From Bacteroidota bacterium (GTDB lineage: Bacteria > Bacteroidota > Bacteroidia > Flavobacteriales_D > Sanyastnellaceae), in assembly GCA_027619225.1 (NCBI GenBank), contig JAQCFW010000004.1, positions 1 to 64,000 on the forward strand: a DNA stretch of 64,000 nt. The letters are read 5' to 3'. Position 1 is the stretch's first letter. Each line of letters starts with the position of its first letter. Below are positions 55,394 through 62,298 of this stretch, piece by piece. Under the pieces are notes generated by a model. It searched no databases. It was not told where the DNA came from and worked only from the letters and a program-made list of their open reading frames with translations. The position numbers and the translations under genes are program-made.

Positions 55394-58300
55394 CTATTCA
55401 CAATATGTCCCAAACTCGCTCAGCAATAAAAGTAAATCTCCCGTTTCCACTATACCGTTTCCATTGAGGTCGGTTGGGCAGAAAACTTCGATTTCACAAG
55501 GTTCTGAATTACCAACTCCGAATGAGTAAAGATCTCCAGCGACTCCGCTTATGATTCCATCTATAATCCAACTAATTTCAAGAGGGTTGTTTCCTTGCTC
55601 ACTTACCTCAATATAATAACAACCTTCTTCGAGACAAATCGCTTCTAAAGATGTTGATCCTGAGCTTAAAGTTCCTGAGTATAAAACCGTTGAAGCATAG
55701 TCCAAAAGGGTGTACTCTGACCCTTCCCAACCATTGTCCCCGTAGTCGTTAAGGATAAGAGAAACGCAGTTTTCTAAGCAACATGAGTCATCATCATCTG
55801 TTGCGTTTGGGTTGTAGTTGCAAGCAGCGGGGTTAGAACAACCATCTAAAGATGTTCCGCAATTTCCGAACGTTCCATTAAAAGGTGAGCCTCCAGATAG
55901 AAGGACTATACCATCTTCATTTGTTAATGTCCAGCCTACCTCCTCTGAGTAATTGCCTCCTCCGCATGTAACGAAATTGCACTCTGCATTAGAGTCATAA
56001 CATGACATTTCAACTCCAGAATATCCTCCACCAAGAGTAAACTCAGCTCCGTTAATAGTTAATATGTTTCCATTCCAGCCATCACCATAACTGTCAGTCA
56101 TCTCAACAGTTAGAGTACCGTTAGAAAGACAGTTTCCGTCACAGTCAAAGCCGGGATTAGAACCGTTCCCTCCACAAATTCCACACTCGTCTGTGAAGTT
56201 GCAAGTTCCATTGTCATAAACCGCTGTCTCGTTATAGTTACAGGCTGTGATGTCTGTACAACCATACTCTCCACCACTTTCGTAGTTAGAAGTAAAGAGT
56301 GCACCAGCCCAATCTGCATGGTCGCTCGAGTTTCCGAAAGTTGCTTCGTCTAAGACTAGCTTTATCGTTGAAGCGCCCGTTATATCAATTTCTAGGTGTT
56401 GGGTAGGAGAGTCTGAATCCATAATCCCGCTTGTGTATACTGGAGAACCGTCTACTATTACAATAAACTCAACTGAACCTTGTCCGTTTGTAATATCATC
56501 GTCAACTCCTATATCTGTGATGAAGTCTGAAAACTGATTGTCTAATGATATTACTATTTCAGCATTGGCATGAAGCCCTAAGCCTTTCTCATAAGCTACT
56601 CCGTTAAGCTCGATGGTGCCACCTTGGACCGATTTATCTCTGCCTAAATCTCCCCAACCAGTATATCCTGAATCCCACCTCGCATCACTTATCCAAAGAA
56701 CATCAGTGCCTATTGATTTCTCAAAAGTGAAAGTGTCGAGACCATCTGAGTAAGAGAATTCTAGATTAAAAATCATGTGTTGAGGGGCCGTCTCCTCGAT
56801 GTATACTGTGATAGGAATTTCAATTGTCTCACCTGGATAAAGAATATCTAAGTTTATTGAAGGGTCCGTTACGGTAACAAACCCTGAGTTTACTCCTATT
56901 GCAGTACAGCTGATAGCTCCTAGTTCAGTCCCTCCAGTTCCAGTGTTTTCTATTTCTACATAAAATTCAGCGTTTTCGCCAGCAGAGATTACTTTGTTGC
57001 CGTCTGTGTCACTGTCAAATCCATTAAAAATAAACTCGATGGTAGGGTATGGCGTTGTGAAACTCATCTCTTGTGTTGTGCCAAATGAACCATCGTATGC
57101 CGTTACTTGTAATTCAAATGTTGTGCCTTTAGGAGTCGCAGCTGCCAGATGACCTTGAAATTCTAGAGATGTAGACTCTCCGGGGTTAATTGCGATAAGA
57201 GTGTTGTTGGGCGATGTGAAAGTTAGAAATTGAGAATTCTGACTTTGGAGAAAAAGAGCTACTTCTATTGCTTCACTTGGGTATGTTCCAGTGTTAGTAA
57301 TCGTAGTTGGGAGGATGAAGGTTTCACCTGGCTCTGGTACTCCATTTCCATTGTCGTCGGAATATATATTGCCAAATTCTAGTGAAAACTCTGGCGCAGG
57401 GATCTTGTAAATAGATGATTGTACAGCTGTGTTTTCTCCGTCAGTTAAAGTCAAGTGAAGTTCAAACTGTGCACCACGAGGCATAGCTTCGTCTATGGTT
57501 ATAAAAAAGGGGCTTATAATTTCATCATCCGGACCAATGGGTCCTATATGTATAGAGTCAAGCTCTAAATTTACCATAGATGTTAACTGTTCTTCTGTGA
57601 GTTCCGTTGCGCAAGTTCCGGATGTAGCTATTACTGATAGTAGAAGCCACGAGTCAGGAGTGAGCACTCCCACATTTGTATGTGTTGCTTCTATAGAGCC
57701 TGTTTCACCTGGGTCGAAGGCTCCGTTATTGTTTGTGTCAGACACAACGCCAGAACTTACTAGGTGCAGAATGGGGGAGGGCTCGGTGCTAAAAAGGGCA
57801 TTCCCCCAATTCATTTGTACATCGTATGAACCTGAAGAGGGAGAAGTTTTTAAAATAAGTTCTTGAATACCTGAGACATTGATATCAATAAATAGTAATT
57901 CTTCGAAACAGTTTATGTCTCCGCTGTTAAAAAGCTCTACTCCATCTCCGATTACTTGGAAGGTGCCACTTCCGGTCGTTCTTGCATCGTCTATACCGAA
58001 GTCTGAACTGAATCTGTAGTACTCTCCTGATAGGTTATATCTGATTTCGCTAATGCCTTTTACGCCAAGACCTTTTTCGTAAAGGTTACCATCAATGCTA
58101 ATTGCATACCCTTGGCTATTTACATCGCGCTTCATGTCGCCATCTTGAGATGAAGAGTAAGTAGCGTTAAGATCACTTAAATAAATATGGGAATCTGAGG
58201 ATATGGGTGTTGAGGCTGTAACCGTCTGGCCAGGAGAGAGAGAAATATCGACGTAGGTTACACTAGAGCCTTTTACATCTTTTACTTGAGCAGATGTGGG

Positions 58301-59662
58301 AATACCATCAATTAATATTTCGTTAAACTCTCCGAAAAATTGAGCTTGCCAAACCATACTCAAGCCATCCGTGTTTGAGGTAAGGCTAGCTGTCGATGAA
58401 GTTTGGTCTATATGCTTAATGTTAAAGAGAGCGCCTCCAAGTGGAATGTTGTCGATCTGAATCCACTCAACTTCATGATTAAGCTAAGATAAAGTGGTTA
58501 ATCGGTTTGCTGGGGAATCTCCTGAAACACCCATCATTCCAGTCACAATATTTCCTATAATTAAAAACGACACCTCTGGATATGGGTGGTTGCTCTGCAT
58601 AATATTGTACAGCCAATGCCAACCAATAGCAACCTTATTATTGAAATACCCCATCTGTGGCAGATAGGTTTTTGCTTCAATATTTATCCCTGAATTATAA
58701 TCCCATTGGGTGTAGTTATCACCCTTAGGAAATGCTATTGAGTTGTGGCAAAAGTTAATCTATTTACTGGTTTTTAATCCCAAATCCGTTATCCCCTTCA
58801 TTGGCATAAAGAAACTGTTTTCGTGCCCAAAATCAGTTTTATAATTCCCATCTGCGTCGAATCCACGAATGTATGTATTCTCTTCTGTGTCATACCATTC
58901 GTTTTCAAATTGCAGTTTGAGTCCCTCCGCAATCGTGAAATACTCTTCTGCTTCAACAAGTTCGTTTCTTGCTTCTAGTATACCTGCGAATGCTAATACT
59001 GATCGGTATTGATTCGCGAATGCGTCTCCGGCTTCAATGAAATCGTCAGTTTCTTGTTCCCAATAAGTTGATAGGTCTGTGTGCATTTCAGCTATGCCAT
59101 TACCGTTCTGATCATGAATATTTATAAACCCATTGACTGTGTTGTAACAATATGTAAAAATTGCTTCATCATATATCCAGTTTGTGTCTCCTGTCCATAA
59201 ATATTGCTCATAGATTTTCTCTACATTTTCAAAAGGAGCAGGAAGTTCTTTAAAATCAGCATCGACAAAGTATGGATTGCCATAAAAATCGAAAGACCAC
59301 TTAGGCCAATAATCATTACTCTCAGGCGCATCACTAGCAAAGGTCTTAAGCATAGAAAAATTTTCCAGATCAAGACCTAGCAAATGGGCGGCCTCTACTT
59401 GATGGCAAATATCTCGAGAACAAAAACATTCTCTACTTCTATATGAACCCCAATAAGCTGGAATATAACCAGGCTCAGTGCCCGTAACAACTAAGCTGTA
59501 AACTTCTGTCTTTGCCGTGTTAAATTCATCTACGAGGTAAGAGTTGGCAGATGAGATTGTAAGCTCTTGCCCATATGTTTGTTCGGGGAATACGCACAGG
59601 CATGCTAAAACTATTAGAATAGACTGTTTTAAGAAGTTTATTTTTTTTCTTTTAAACATCAT
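55394..59662 (-). pseudogene. Secreted glycosidase-like / NPCBM / dockerin-like gene broken by two in-frame TAG codons
   Basis: From the ATG at 59662 the same frame runs 1423 codons to 55394 with only two interruptions, TAG at 58762-58760 and TAG at 58486-58484; no frameshift is needed. The 91 codons between them read as good protein (KTYLPQMGYFNNKVAIGWHW, PEVSFLIIGNIVTGMMGV). Intact parts: signal peptide, a six-hairpin-glycosidase-like region (PAYWGSYRSRECFCSRDICH, EAAHLLGLDLENF), an NPCBM-like domain (YEKGLGVKGISEIRYNLSG), three CARDB-like repeats, a second NPCBM domain (YEKGLGLHANAEIVISL), two ACNY Cys-rich repeats and a dockerin-like tail (DLNGNGIVETGDLLLLLSEF). The family name is tentative. 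Both stops could come from CAG by one C-to-T change. It is 43 nt downstream of the lysyl-oxidase-like gene. Confidence 0.8.
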
Positions 59663-59705: not shown

Positions 59706-62036
59706 TCAGCAGGTTGTTCCAAACGCCGAAAGCACAAGTAGTACATCCGCAACGTTAACATAGCCATCGCCATTTACGTCGTTTGAACAGTCTGACAGGC
59801 AACCAAATTCGCTTAATACAACTAGTATGTCGCTGACACTAACTACCAGGTCACCATCGAGATCTCCAACGCATGCAGTGTTTGTTTCTTCAATACATGG
59901 GTTGAAAAGAGATGTCAGAGTTGTCTGAAGAGCATCATTTACCACATCTACAGCTTGAGAAATACATACCATTCCATTTGCCGATCCTATCCAATGAACA
60001 CGAAGAAATGGAGTGTATACTATGTTCTTTGGGATCGAAGTACCATCGTAACTTAGAGAAAGTACATCTATTCCTCCTGGTACGTGAGAAGGGGTTCCGG
60101 AGTAAAGAAGAGGGTCGATCAAGCTCTCAGTTTGAGAGATTTGAATGCCATCGAACTCTAGGTGATATGCGTAGATTCTATTGTCTGGATTCAGAACGTG
60201 CACGTCAAAATATTGTAAGTCCCAGTTTACACTTCCTATGGTAAATTCAACATTGTCAAACGGATTTTCAATCGCTACAGTCGGAAAGTCACAATGAGTA
60301 TGTACTCCAGAACTATCTGGATGAGCGTGTGCTGAATTCCAATACTGACAATCTGCAATCGTAGCAGCATCAACCACGTTTATTAAGCCATCAGAATTAA
60401 TGTCATTGCAATCATTTAATGGAATATCCCCTCCTAGAACACCTTCTGTATAAAGCTGAGCGTCAGTCAAATCTTGGTCGGAATCAGCATCAATATCTCC
60501 CATTAAGGTCGATCCTCCACAAGTCCCAGTACAGTCATTCAGTGTAGTCCCATAAGGCTCTCCTGAACAATCTGTGAAAACAGGACAATCTGTGAGAATA
60601 CTAACATTATATCCACTTGTTCTATCTATTTCAATACAAACAACACCCCAATTGTTGTCCGTATTTGTTTCGTAATGGCCTAAAGCGTCTGGGGCGTAAT
60701 CCCAATTTACACGAACTACAAGGCGATACTGGCCGTCAGGCACATCTGTAACGTCAATCCATTGGCAACTGAGTCCACTAGAGTAAATATCTCCGCAACC
60801 AGCAGTAATACCCATTGTTGAACATCCGTATGTTGCAGAACCCCCTCCACTACATTCTAAATCCATCACACAAAATCCATTTTTAAATCCCACAGGAATG
60901 AATCCTCCATCCATGTCAAATAAATCATATTTTGCATATCCATCATAATGCCAGTGATTGTGGCAATCGCCCCATTCAAATTGTGTAGATGAACCCCCAC
61001 TTTGGCCTATATAATAGTCAAGGTCGCCAATGTTCTGAATGTGTGTGGTAAATCTAATGATTTGTCTCTCACCAAAGCCATTTAAGCACCCCTCTTCAAT
61101 ATAACAATCCGTTTCATTAACCTGCATTGTCGTTGCGTATAGAGAGCTCGTAATCGCGTCAGTTAAAATTACAAGGTCTGGCCCGTTACACAATGGGTCT
61201 CCTTCGTAAATACATGTTCCATTGTCAACTTCAGCTGATGGATTGTAGTTACAGGCTGTAGAGTCCATACATCCTTCAGGCGGGCCTACAAAAGAAAAAT
61301 CCCAATCAAAAGCTCCACAGCTCGCATCCAAAGATGCCCAACGTATCCACATCTGTTCTCCTCCCACTAACAATGCCGTAATCGCAGCCTCGTCACCGCA
61401 ACCTCCTTGCATATTGTCATAATAAATCGTGCCCTCATTCGTATCCCCAAAGTTGTTCATATTACAATAGTCGTAGATAAAAAGGGTTGTATTGCATGCT
61501 GCTCCACAAGAGCTGAATAAATACATTCCGTTTGCTGGGGGAGTAAACGTGTACCAGAAGTTTTCTGATGCCTGAGCCACAACTCCATAATCTGCGTCTG
61601 TCAAAACCACCGCATCGTTGCAAGTAGTTCCTGGAGCACAATCAAACATAACGATATCCTGATAGCCAAAATCTCCACCAGTCGCAACTTCAACTCCGTC
61701 AATGAATAACGTAAAATCTCCATTGCCATAGCCACAACATATACCATCTCCATAGCTGTCGTCTATTACAAACTGTAAACAAGATGGGTCTCCAGTATTA
61801 GGTATACAAGTTGATGCCGTGTATGTTGTATTGTTTGCAGAGTATGGGCCTCCTGTTAGGAGAGTACCACTTGCATCTGACAAAGTCCATGTTGTTTCAC
61901 CTGGATAGTTGTCCGTTAATATTTGTACAACAACCACTGACTCTCCTTCAACGCATTGAGCAGAAATTGAGTTGGTAACAGACGCGGAAAGTAGGAGTAT
62001 AATTCCAGAAAATATAATAGAGTAGTTATTGTTCAT
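59706..62036 (-). CDS. Secreted lysyl oxidase-like protein with dockerin-like tail
   Basis: 776 residues from the ATG at 62036 (the open frame's first codon is a TTG at 62045). Signal peptide, two N-terminal Cys-rich beta domains (DDSYGDGICCGYGNGDFTLF, ENFWYTFTPPANGMYLFS), one ACNY repeat, then a lysyl oxidase domain at about residues 285-475. The copper motif EWGDCHNHWHYDGYAKYDLF has His359, His361 and His363. GFKNGFC supplies Lys385 and GDIYSSGLSCQWIDVTDV supplies Tyr418, equivalent to the two residues that form the lysine tyrosylquinone cofactor in animal enzymes. Two dockerin-like calcium segments follow, the last ending LSAFGTTC. It may oxidise amines or lysines outside the cell; the substrate is unknown. 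Upstream partner of the broken glycosidase-like gene. Confidence 0.85.
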   Translation of the reverse strand: MNNNYSIIFSGIILLLSASVTNSISAQCVEGESVVVVQILTDNYPGETTWTLSDASGTLLTGGPYSANNTTYTASTCIPNTGDPSCLQFVIDDSYGDGICCGYGNGDFTLFIDGVEVATGGDFGYQDIVMFDCAPGTTCNDAVVLTDADYGVVAQASENFWYTFTPPANGMYLFSSCGAACNTTLFIYDYCNMNNFGDTNEGTIYYDNMQGGCGDEAAITALLVGGEQMWIRWASLDASCGAFDWDFSFVGPPEGCMDSTACNYNPSAEVDNGTCIYEGDPLCNGPDLVILTDAITSSLYATTMQVNETDCYIEEGCLNGFGERQIIRFTTHIQNIGDLDYYIGQSGGSSTQFEWGDCHNHWHYDGYAKYDLFDMDGGFIPVGFKNGFCVMDLECSGGGSATYGCSTMGITAGCGDIYSSGLSCQWIDVTDVPDGQYRLVVRVNWDYAPDALGHYETNTDNNWGVVCIEIDRTSGYNVSILTDCPVFTDCSGEPYGTTLNDCTGTCGGSTLMGDIDADSDQDLTDAQLYTEGVLGGDIPLNDCNDINSDGLINVVDAATIADCQYWNSAHAHPDSSGVHTHCDFPTVAIENPFDNVEFTIGSVNWDLQYFDVHVLNPDNRIYAYHLEFDGIQISQTESLIDPLLYSGTPSHVPGGIDVLSLSYDGTSIPKNIVYTPFLRVHWIGSANGMVCISQAVDVVNDALQTTLTSLFNPCIEETNTACVGDLDGDLVVSVSDILVVLSEFGCLSDCSNDVNGDGYVNVADVLLVLSAFGTTC

Positions 62037-62298
62037 AGGGATCAATTCTTAATTGTTCTTGTTTATGACGCAAAAAACTAGGTTATAGTTGCTTGAAAAA
62101 TAATTGTTGTGATGCTTTGTTGTATTTAACCCGAGCAGACCTGACCGAAAGCTCAAAAAGAGTTACAGGTAGTTAATAATGTTCTGGAAATTTTTATTCC
62201 CGGTATTAACACGTATATTTCATCACATATATTTGCAATACGCCAGAATGAGTTTTAGGAATTGCATATTTGTCTTAACTATTTATAATTGAATTTAT

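Follow-up and report, generated by a model that had tools for sequence, protein, structure and literature searches.

Why does an uncultured flavobacterium encode a relative of the enzymes that cross-link collagen and elastin in animals, and why does this relative carry modules of the docking type? The question is raised by a gene, here called LOX-B, in a 64,000-nucleotide stretch of DNA from a Bacteroidota bacterium of the family Sanyastnellaceae (assembly GCA_027619225.1, contig JAQCFW010000004.1, positions 1–64,000; hereafter the window). An earlier reading made from the letters of the window (the sequence-only reading) had placed a lysyl oxidase (LOX)-like protein at 59706–62036. The open reading frame is present there and lies on the minus strand, as do all features of the gene given below; it runs from 59706 to 62045 and encodes 779 amino acids from a TTG start, or 776 from an ATG at 62036, and the plus strand of 59706–62036 is rich in stop codons. 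We count residues from the TTG, so that ATG-based numbers are three lower (Lys388 and Tyr421 here are Lys385 and Tyr418 in the ATG-based count).

The LOX catalytic domain comprises residues 286–475 (60621–61190). A Pfam search of the protein matched PF01186 to residues 289–451 (60693–61181) with an E-value of 4.8e-32 and 111.7 bits, compared to a cut-off of 20.4 bits, and a sequence search of the PDB found human LOXL2 (5ze3) with an E-value of 1.2e-26. The three motifs cited in the sequence-only reading, CHNHWHYDGYAKYDLF, GFKNGFC, and GDIYSSGLSC, were all located in the translated frame. The DCHNHWH segment, Lys388, and Tyr421 of LOX-B share alignment columns with DCHRHYH and the corresponding Lys and Tyr of LOXL2, which places the copper motif HNHWH (His362, His364, and His366) at 60948–60962 and the lysine and tyrosine of the lysine tyrosylquinone (LTQ) cofactor at 60882–60884 and 60783–60785, respectively. 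The spacings that the sequence-only reading had given, 22 residues from the last histidine to Lys388 and 33 from Lys388 to Tyr421, were recovered exactly. Each of 123 full domains compared, 110 of them different, retained all five residues; this set consists of 128 matches minus five weak or partial ones, namely L157, L158, L159, and L178, in which the profile aligned only in the C-terminal part (18–22 bits), and L161, in which all five residues aligned but the score was 14.5 bits. AlphaFold prediction on 14 related LOX domains gave a mean predicted local distance difference test score (pLDDT) of 81.9, and the top Foldseek match of the predicted LOX domain was again 5ze3 (5.9e-13). Comparison of this domain with LOXL2 (5ze3_A) using VIA-align gave a Z of 20.0 and 2.3 Å over 185 residues at 34% identity, with CARDB as the next-best fold (Z 8.5). 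Our results show by computation that the window protein is a member of the lysyl oxidase family with a LOXL2-like fold and intact copper and cofactor residues. Catalysis by the predicted LOX-B domain is well supported by these residues and this fold and is expected from established LOX chemistry and from an active prokaryotic relative, HTU-LOX of the archaeon Haloterrigena turkmenica; extracts of PMC6452851 describe this enzyme as acting, with Cu2+, on polypeptides that contain lysine and as inhibited by 3-aminopropionitrile (BAPN).

The genome from which the window comes (the source genome) contains two LOX genes, which are 57% identical over the recovered part of the second. Within the genus, each of the 13 other genomes has a PF01186 match, as do 39 of 47 further members of the family and 9 of 39 genomes elsewhere in the order; with the source genome, this gives a tally of 62 of 100 genomes that includes weak partial matches in three of the nine order-level genomes (G070, G079, and G098) and partial matches in two of the family genomes (G026 and G060). 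Of the 51 family genomes with a completeness of 90% or more, 46 have LOX, and these cover 14 of 17 genera. A sample of the phylum gave 4 of 392 genomes, two of them from this family (the source genome and G018) and two with weak matches, and 14 control genomes had none. For this flavobacterial family, LOX is a near-core gene. Of 506 pattern matches in the GTDB genome collection, 473 encode a relative; nearly all of the best 80 of these 473 are titled Flavobacteriales, Bacteroidetes, or Crocinitomicaceae, the last three being Saprospiraceae, and two of the 80 come from one genome titled Euryarchaeota. Going by sample names, we would guess that the carriers are largely marine. A viral origin was rejected, as none of 70 pattern matches in viral contigs was confirmed as a relative.

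The dockerin-like C-terminal tail that the sequence-only reading had noted proved to be real, with a predicted dockerin fold and conserved loops, and the C-terminal half of LOX-B contains two further modules that had escaped it, an internal pair of dockerin-like loops and a module with a cohesin fold. A model of residues 477–779 was of poor quality as a whole (pLDDT 61); the middle module was modeled well and the internal pair at low confidence. For the middle module (residues about 594–723), cohesins made up most of the top 33 VIA-align rows (best 6kgd_A, Z 9.7, 3.5 Å over 124 residues), and the C-terminal tail matched dockerins (2ozn_B, Z 8.3, 1.7 Å over 54 residues; 2y3n_B, Z 8.2, 2.0 Å over 58 residues). 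VIA-align warns that models lacking a clear match typically reach a best Z of 7–8, so these cohesin and dockerin fold calls rest on the consistency of the matches and not on Z alone.

The internal pair and the cohesin-fold module recur in nearly all LOX proteins examined. The cohesin-fold module, delimited by predicted structure and a module profile, spans residues 591–717 (59895–60275); its profile matched 121 of 123 LOX proteins (L078 and L180 only partly, at contig ends), the misses being L150, at a contig end, and L179, where the module lies alongside in another frame. Its spacing from the LOX domain is nearly fixed at 103–112 residues, and in the source genome the profile matched only the two LOX genes. 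The internal dockerin-like pair (residues 513–565; 60351–60509) lies between the LOX and cohesin-fold modules and consists of two loops of 12 residues each, with acidic residues at their ends in dockerin style, at residues 517 and 548, with weak dockerin matches (E-values of 0.08–0.46). A custom pattern for dockerin-type loops found at least one loop in all 121 proteins searched and two in 91, compared to 10% and 0.4%, respectively, in shuffled sequences; in equal lengths upstream of LOX, the same pattern found at least one loop in 8 of 118 and two in 0 of 118. A layout of LOX, dockerin-like pair, and cohesin-fold module is common to 121 of the 123 LOX proteins. The C-terminal dockerin-like tail (residues 715–779; 59709–59903), delimited by a tail profile, a tail alignment, and the predicted fold, scored 22.9 bits against the PF00404 cut-off of 22.9 when searched alone, and 22.6 bits against the NF041540 cut-off of 29. 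The first and last Asp of both calcium loops were invariant in 9 of 9 aligned tails, and under a stricter loop pattern only the second loop of the window tail fits. At an E-value of 0.01 or lower, the source genome contains 47 matches to this tail; among the best 30 of the 47, 28 show the tail by a simple pattern, no more than 34 residues from the stop. Many exoproteins of the source genome, including one CotH protein (a 755-amino-acid frame), end in a dockerin-like tail (for example, L052/L144, contig C11).

The two LOX genes belong to different lineages, which differ in their tails. A quick tree of 112 rows placed the window gene in a clade of 18, with a Shimodaira–Hasegawa-like approximate likelihood ratio test (SH-aLRT) support of 95, which defines LOX-B; 17 of the 18 members end in a dockerin-like tail, and the remaining one, L078, is interrupted by a contig end. 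By a simple pattern, 54 of the 55 loci assigned to the paralogous lineage, LOX-A, have a type A tail of the type IX secretion system (T9SS), with one unclassified; for LOX-A in L098, the T9SS tail match in Pfam was 27.7 bits against a cut-off of 27. No T9SS type A sorting domain (TIGR04183 or PF18962) was matched on the window protein in Pfam or NCBIfam. Another LOX group elsewhere in the tree also has a dockerin-like tail, and the tree calls for at least three tail changes. The two kinds of tail thus share one position and have replaced each other, which suggests a common role in positioning the protein extracellularly. In the source genome, the T9SS type A tail has 64 matches, 61 of them above cut-off, and SprA, the T9SS translocon, is encoded; possibly, the dockerin-like tail is another class of C-terminal placement signal in addition to the T9SS tails. 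The position of the animal enzymes in this tree was unusable, as the rows for human and Gemmatirosa LOX sit on very long branches that join each other. Two family members, L181 and L182, encode divergent LOX proteins with GHKNGFC in place of GFKNGFC (LOXL2 has GHKASFC) and branch near the root of the tree, which is itself unsure. At seven loci (L087, L090, L091, L092, L096, L107, and L109), two LOX genes lie within ~12 kb; one has a dockerin-like tail, the other is T9SS-tailed or unclassified, and no CotH gene was found there in the recovered stretch.

At 41 of 55 loci, LOX-A is followed on the same strand by a gene for a secreted CotH kinase (for example, L098:9089–14628 and L149:4957–9069), with the two frames, measured stop-to-stop, ranging from an 85-nucleotide overlap to 124 nucleotides apart. 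The partner in L098 carries LTD, a CotH kinase domain (PF08757, 100 bits), and the type IX tail CHU_C; no CotH structure turned up when its sequence was searched against the PDB. Of the 14 LOX-A loci without CotH, two are at contig ends (39 and 52 nucleotides recovered) and twelve fall in one clade, eleven as rows at a support of 98 and the twelfth, L108, by a domain sequence identical to that of L105. The source genome has the LOX-A and CotH pair on contig C44 and five CotH genes in total; its LOX-A is apparently divided over contigs C23 and C44, the pieces differing slightly where they overlap. The association with CotH concerns the paralogue and could extend to the window gene only by analogy. 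Conserved neighbors of LOX-B, at 11–13 loci including the window, are instead a coiled-coil-like protein, a UPF0102 gene, and a pseudouridine synthase-like gene on the other strand, the first and last being names given by eye. Downstream of LOX-B in the window, at 55394–59662 on the minus strand, is one frame of ~1,420 codons with two in-frame TAG codons (58760–58762 and 58484–58486), which represents either a decayed gene or assembly errors; the first part of its product looks glycoside hydrolase-like by eye, with no Pfam match, and is followed by NPCBM, CARDB, and a terminal dockerin-like repeat.

At its N terminus, LOX-B has a probable Sec signal peptide, judged by eye from a hydrophobic start ending in ...SISAQ (61956–62036), followed by ~225 residues of Cys-containing modules (residues 31–256; 61278–61955) that are conserved in the paralogue and have no match in Pfam or NCBIfam, and then by a short Cys repeat, GCMDSTACNYNPSAEVDNGTCIY (61197–61274), with a similar repeat in the paralogue. 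A scan of the gene gave 11 promoter-like sites, compared to 9.6 in shuffled sequences, and one terminator-like site, compared to 2.5.

Beyond the family, plasmids yielded one distant LOX, from Gemmatirosa kalamazoonensis (30.6% identity, a 362-amino-acid frame). This protein and the distant L160 and L161 lack the dockerin-like and cohesin-fold modules, which agrees with the simple architecture that passages of PMC4448552 ascribe to most prokaryotic LOX proteins. The cohesin-fold profile had no match in L157, L158, L159, L178, L160, or L161. The four partial matches L157, L158, L159, and L178 may be distant LOX relatives; L157 ends at a contig end. L158, L159, L178, L160, and L161 are distant LOX-like proteins of other Bacteroidota with an HxHxH motif (seen by eye in L160), which in L158, L159, and L178 sits upstream of the profile-aligned part, and these five could constitute a separate LOX-like family.

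What, then, might LOX-B do? Our preferred reading, to which we give about even chances, is that it is a secreted Cu/LTQ lysyl oxidase that works in an extracellular assembly and acts on lysines of secreted or surface proteins. Outside the cell, the LOX domain would bind Cu(II) and, unaided, build LTQ from Lys388 and Tyr421; it would then convert primary amines, above all the lysine side chains on secreted or surface proteins of the cell itself, to aldehydes, which could condense into cross-links, as the sequence-only reading had also supposed for extracellular protein. The dockerin-like tail and the dockerin/cohesin-like cassette would keep the enzyme in an extracellular protein assembly beside its substrates, and the T9SS-tailed paralogue would act at the cell surface together with the secreted CotH-type kinase. 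An extended version, resembling matrix maturation in animals, is a long shot: in these uncultured flavobacteria, the cohesin-fold module would capture dockerin-tailed exoproteins, an idea based on the 47 tail matches in the source genome, LOX would oxidize lysines in them and so cross-link them, and secreted CotH would phosphorylate the same proteins.

Several observations weigh against the preferred reading. The Pfam cohesin profile (PF00963) had no match in the source genome at E-values up to 0.1, and we therefore call the middle module cohesin-like and not a member of the cohesin family. In the whole protein, the dockerin-like modules fall below cut-offs (for the tail, PF00404 at 11.5 bits against 22.9 and no NCBIfam match). 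CotH was beside LOX-B at 0 of 18 loci, four of which have less than 900 nucleotides downstream. Collagen was rejected as a substrate, the sole PF01391 match in the source genome being a GED-rich low-complexity stretch in what is apparently a TPR protein. In addition, extracts of PMC6452851 describe the specificity of HTU-LOX as relaxed, and LOX-A has an S46 peptidase gene upstream, in the same orientation, at 42 of the 48 loci that cover that gene, an arrangement that suits peptide feeding equally well.

The last two points lead to the main rival, nutrient scavenging, in which a promiscuous secreted amine oxidase frees ammonium and aldehydes from dissolved amines, lysine peptides, or polyamines, with cross-linking as an incidental result. 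For HTU-LOX, which accepts taurine, cadaverine, histamine, and polymyxin as substrates, a modest role in nitrogen supply has been suggested by the authors (PMC6452851, in extract); the S46 peptidase gene beside LOX-A fits as well, and so does a urocanase gene in the window. Feeding, however, needs no docking modules, tail, or kinase partner, and a layout retained in 121 of 123 proteins points to an enzyme that is held and assembled, and we consider scavenging unlikely, if still a serious contender. A role as adhesins for the surfaces of algae or particles, in which the oxidase would attach the modular LOX proteins covalently to surface proteins, fits a multi-modular exoprotein whose folds are known from protein–protein docking and whose paralogue bears a T9SS tail, but Pfam and NCBIfam searches recognized no adhesin domain in the window protein, and we regard this role as improbable. 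Defense or competition, with H2O2 (a product of LOX chemistry) and aldehydes at the surface, or deamination of amine antibiotics, harming competitors or shielding the cell, seems very improbable to us. HTU-LOX is active on aminoglycosides and polymyxin (PMC6452851, in extract). Against such a role, no defense or resistance gene was recognized by eye among 15 neighbor clusters, although no search was aimed at such genes. Near-core retention of LOX also argues against it, being to our knowledge unusual for competition genes. Least credible is a catalytically silent LOX domain with a structural or binding function, an idea that draws on the lack of detectable amine oxidase activity in cultures of the HTU-LOX host (PMC6452851, in extract) but leaves retention of the five catalytic residues in 123 of 123 domains hard to explain.

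The LOX family is not new in bacteria. The sequence-only reading was right that lysyl oxidases are best known from animals, but Bacteroidetes were listed among the carriers of prokaryotic LOX as early as 2015, in passages of Grau-Bove 2015 (PMC4448552), and an archaeal LOX, termed cryptic in extracts of PMC6452851, has been shown to be active. Going by titles and the starts of abstracts, we found no related report in open-licence PMC text that links LOX to CotH, dockerins, or flavobacteria; what is apparently new, in the sense of not being found in that text, is a near-core LOX, the layout of LOX with a dockerin-like pair and a cohesin-fold module, and the pairing of T9SS-tailed LOX-A with CotH. 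In the 2015 survey, as far as its extracts go, a role for LOX in bacterial metabolism was only guessed at (PMC4448552). A near-core LOX fused to docking-type modules, with a paralogue often beside a secreted kinase gene, offers handles on function in the form of a partner, a location, and a candidate assembly, and the finding bears on the origin of an animal matrix enzyme.

Compared to known systems, LOX-B belongs to the same family as the prokaryotic LOX proteins of the 2015 survey and differs in the multi-module layout seen in 121 of 123 proteins here; as in the bacterial sequences in passages of that survey (PMC4448552), the animal motif WEWHSCH occurs without its first His, the LOX-B sequence being WGDCH. 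HTU-LOX is likewise a prokaryotic LOX but is archaeal and, at 308 amino acids, too short for the LOX-B modules (PMC6452851, in extract). CotH of Bacillus subtilis phosphorylates Ser/Lys-rich structural coat proteins and is distantly related to animal Fam20C, according to extracts of PMC7821199. The dockerins and cohesins of cellulosomes and Clostridium perfringens glycosidases (2ozn, 2y3n, and 1ohz) match the predicted folds of the LOX-B tail and middle module, whereas by sequence the LOX-B modules are not above family cut-offs and are candidate binding modules. The spore-coat kinase CotH shares PF08757 with the predicted LOX-A partner, which adds LTD and CHU_C and comes from Flavobacteriales, an order that is not known to form spores. 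The animal LOX and LOXL enzymes, represented by LOXL2 (5ze3), have the fold, the His copper motif, and the LTQ Lys and Tyr in common with LOX-B, but where LOXL2 carries SRCR domains, LOX-B carries dockerin-like and cohesin-fold modules and a Bacteroidota-type N-terminal half.
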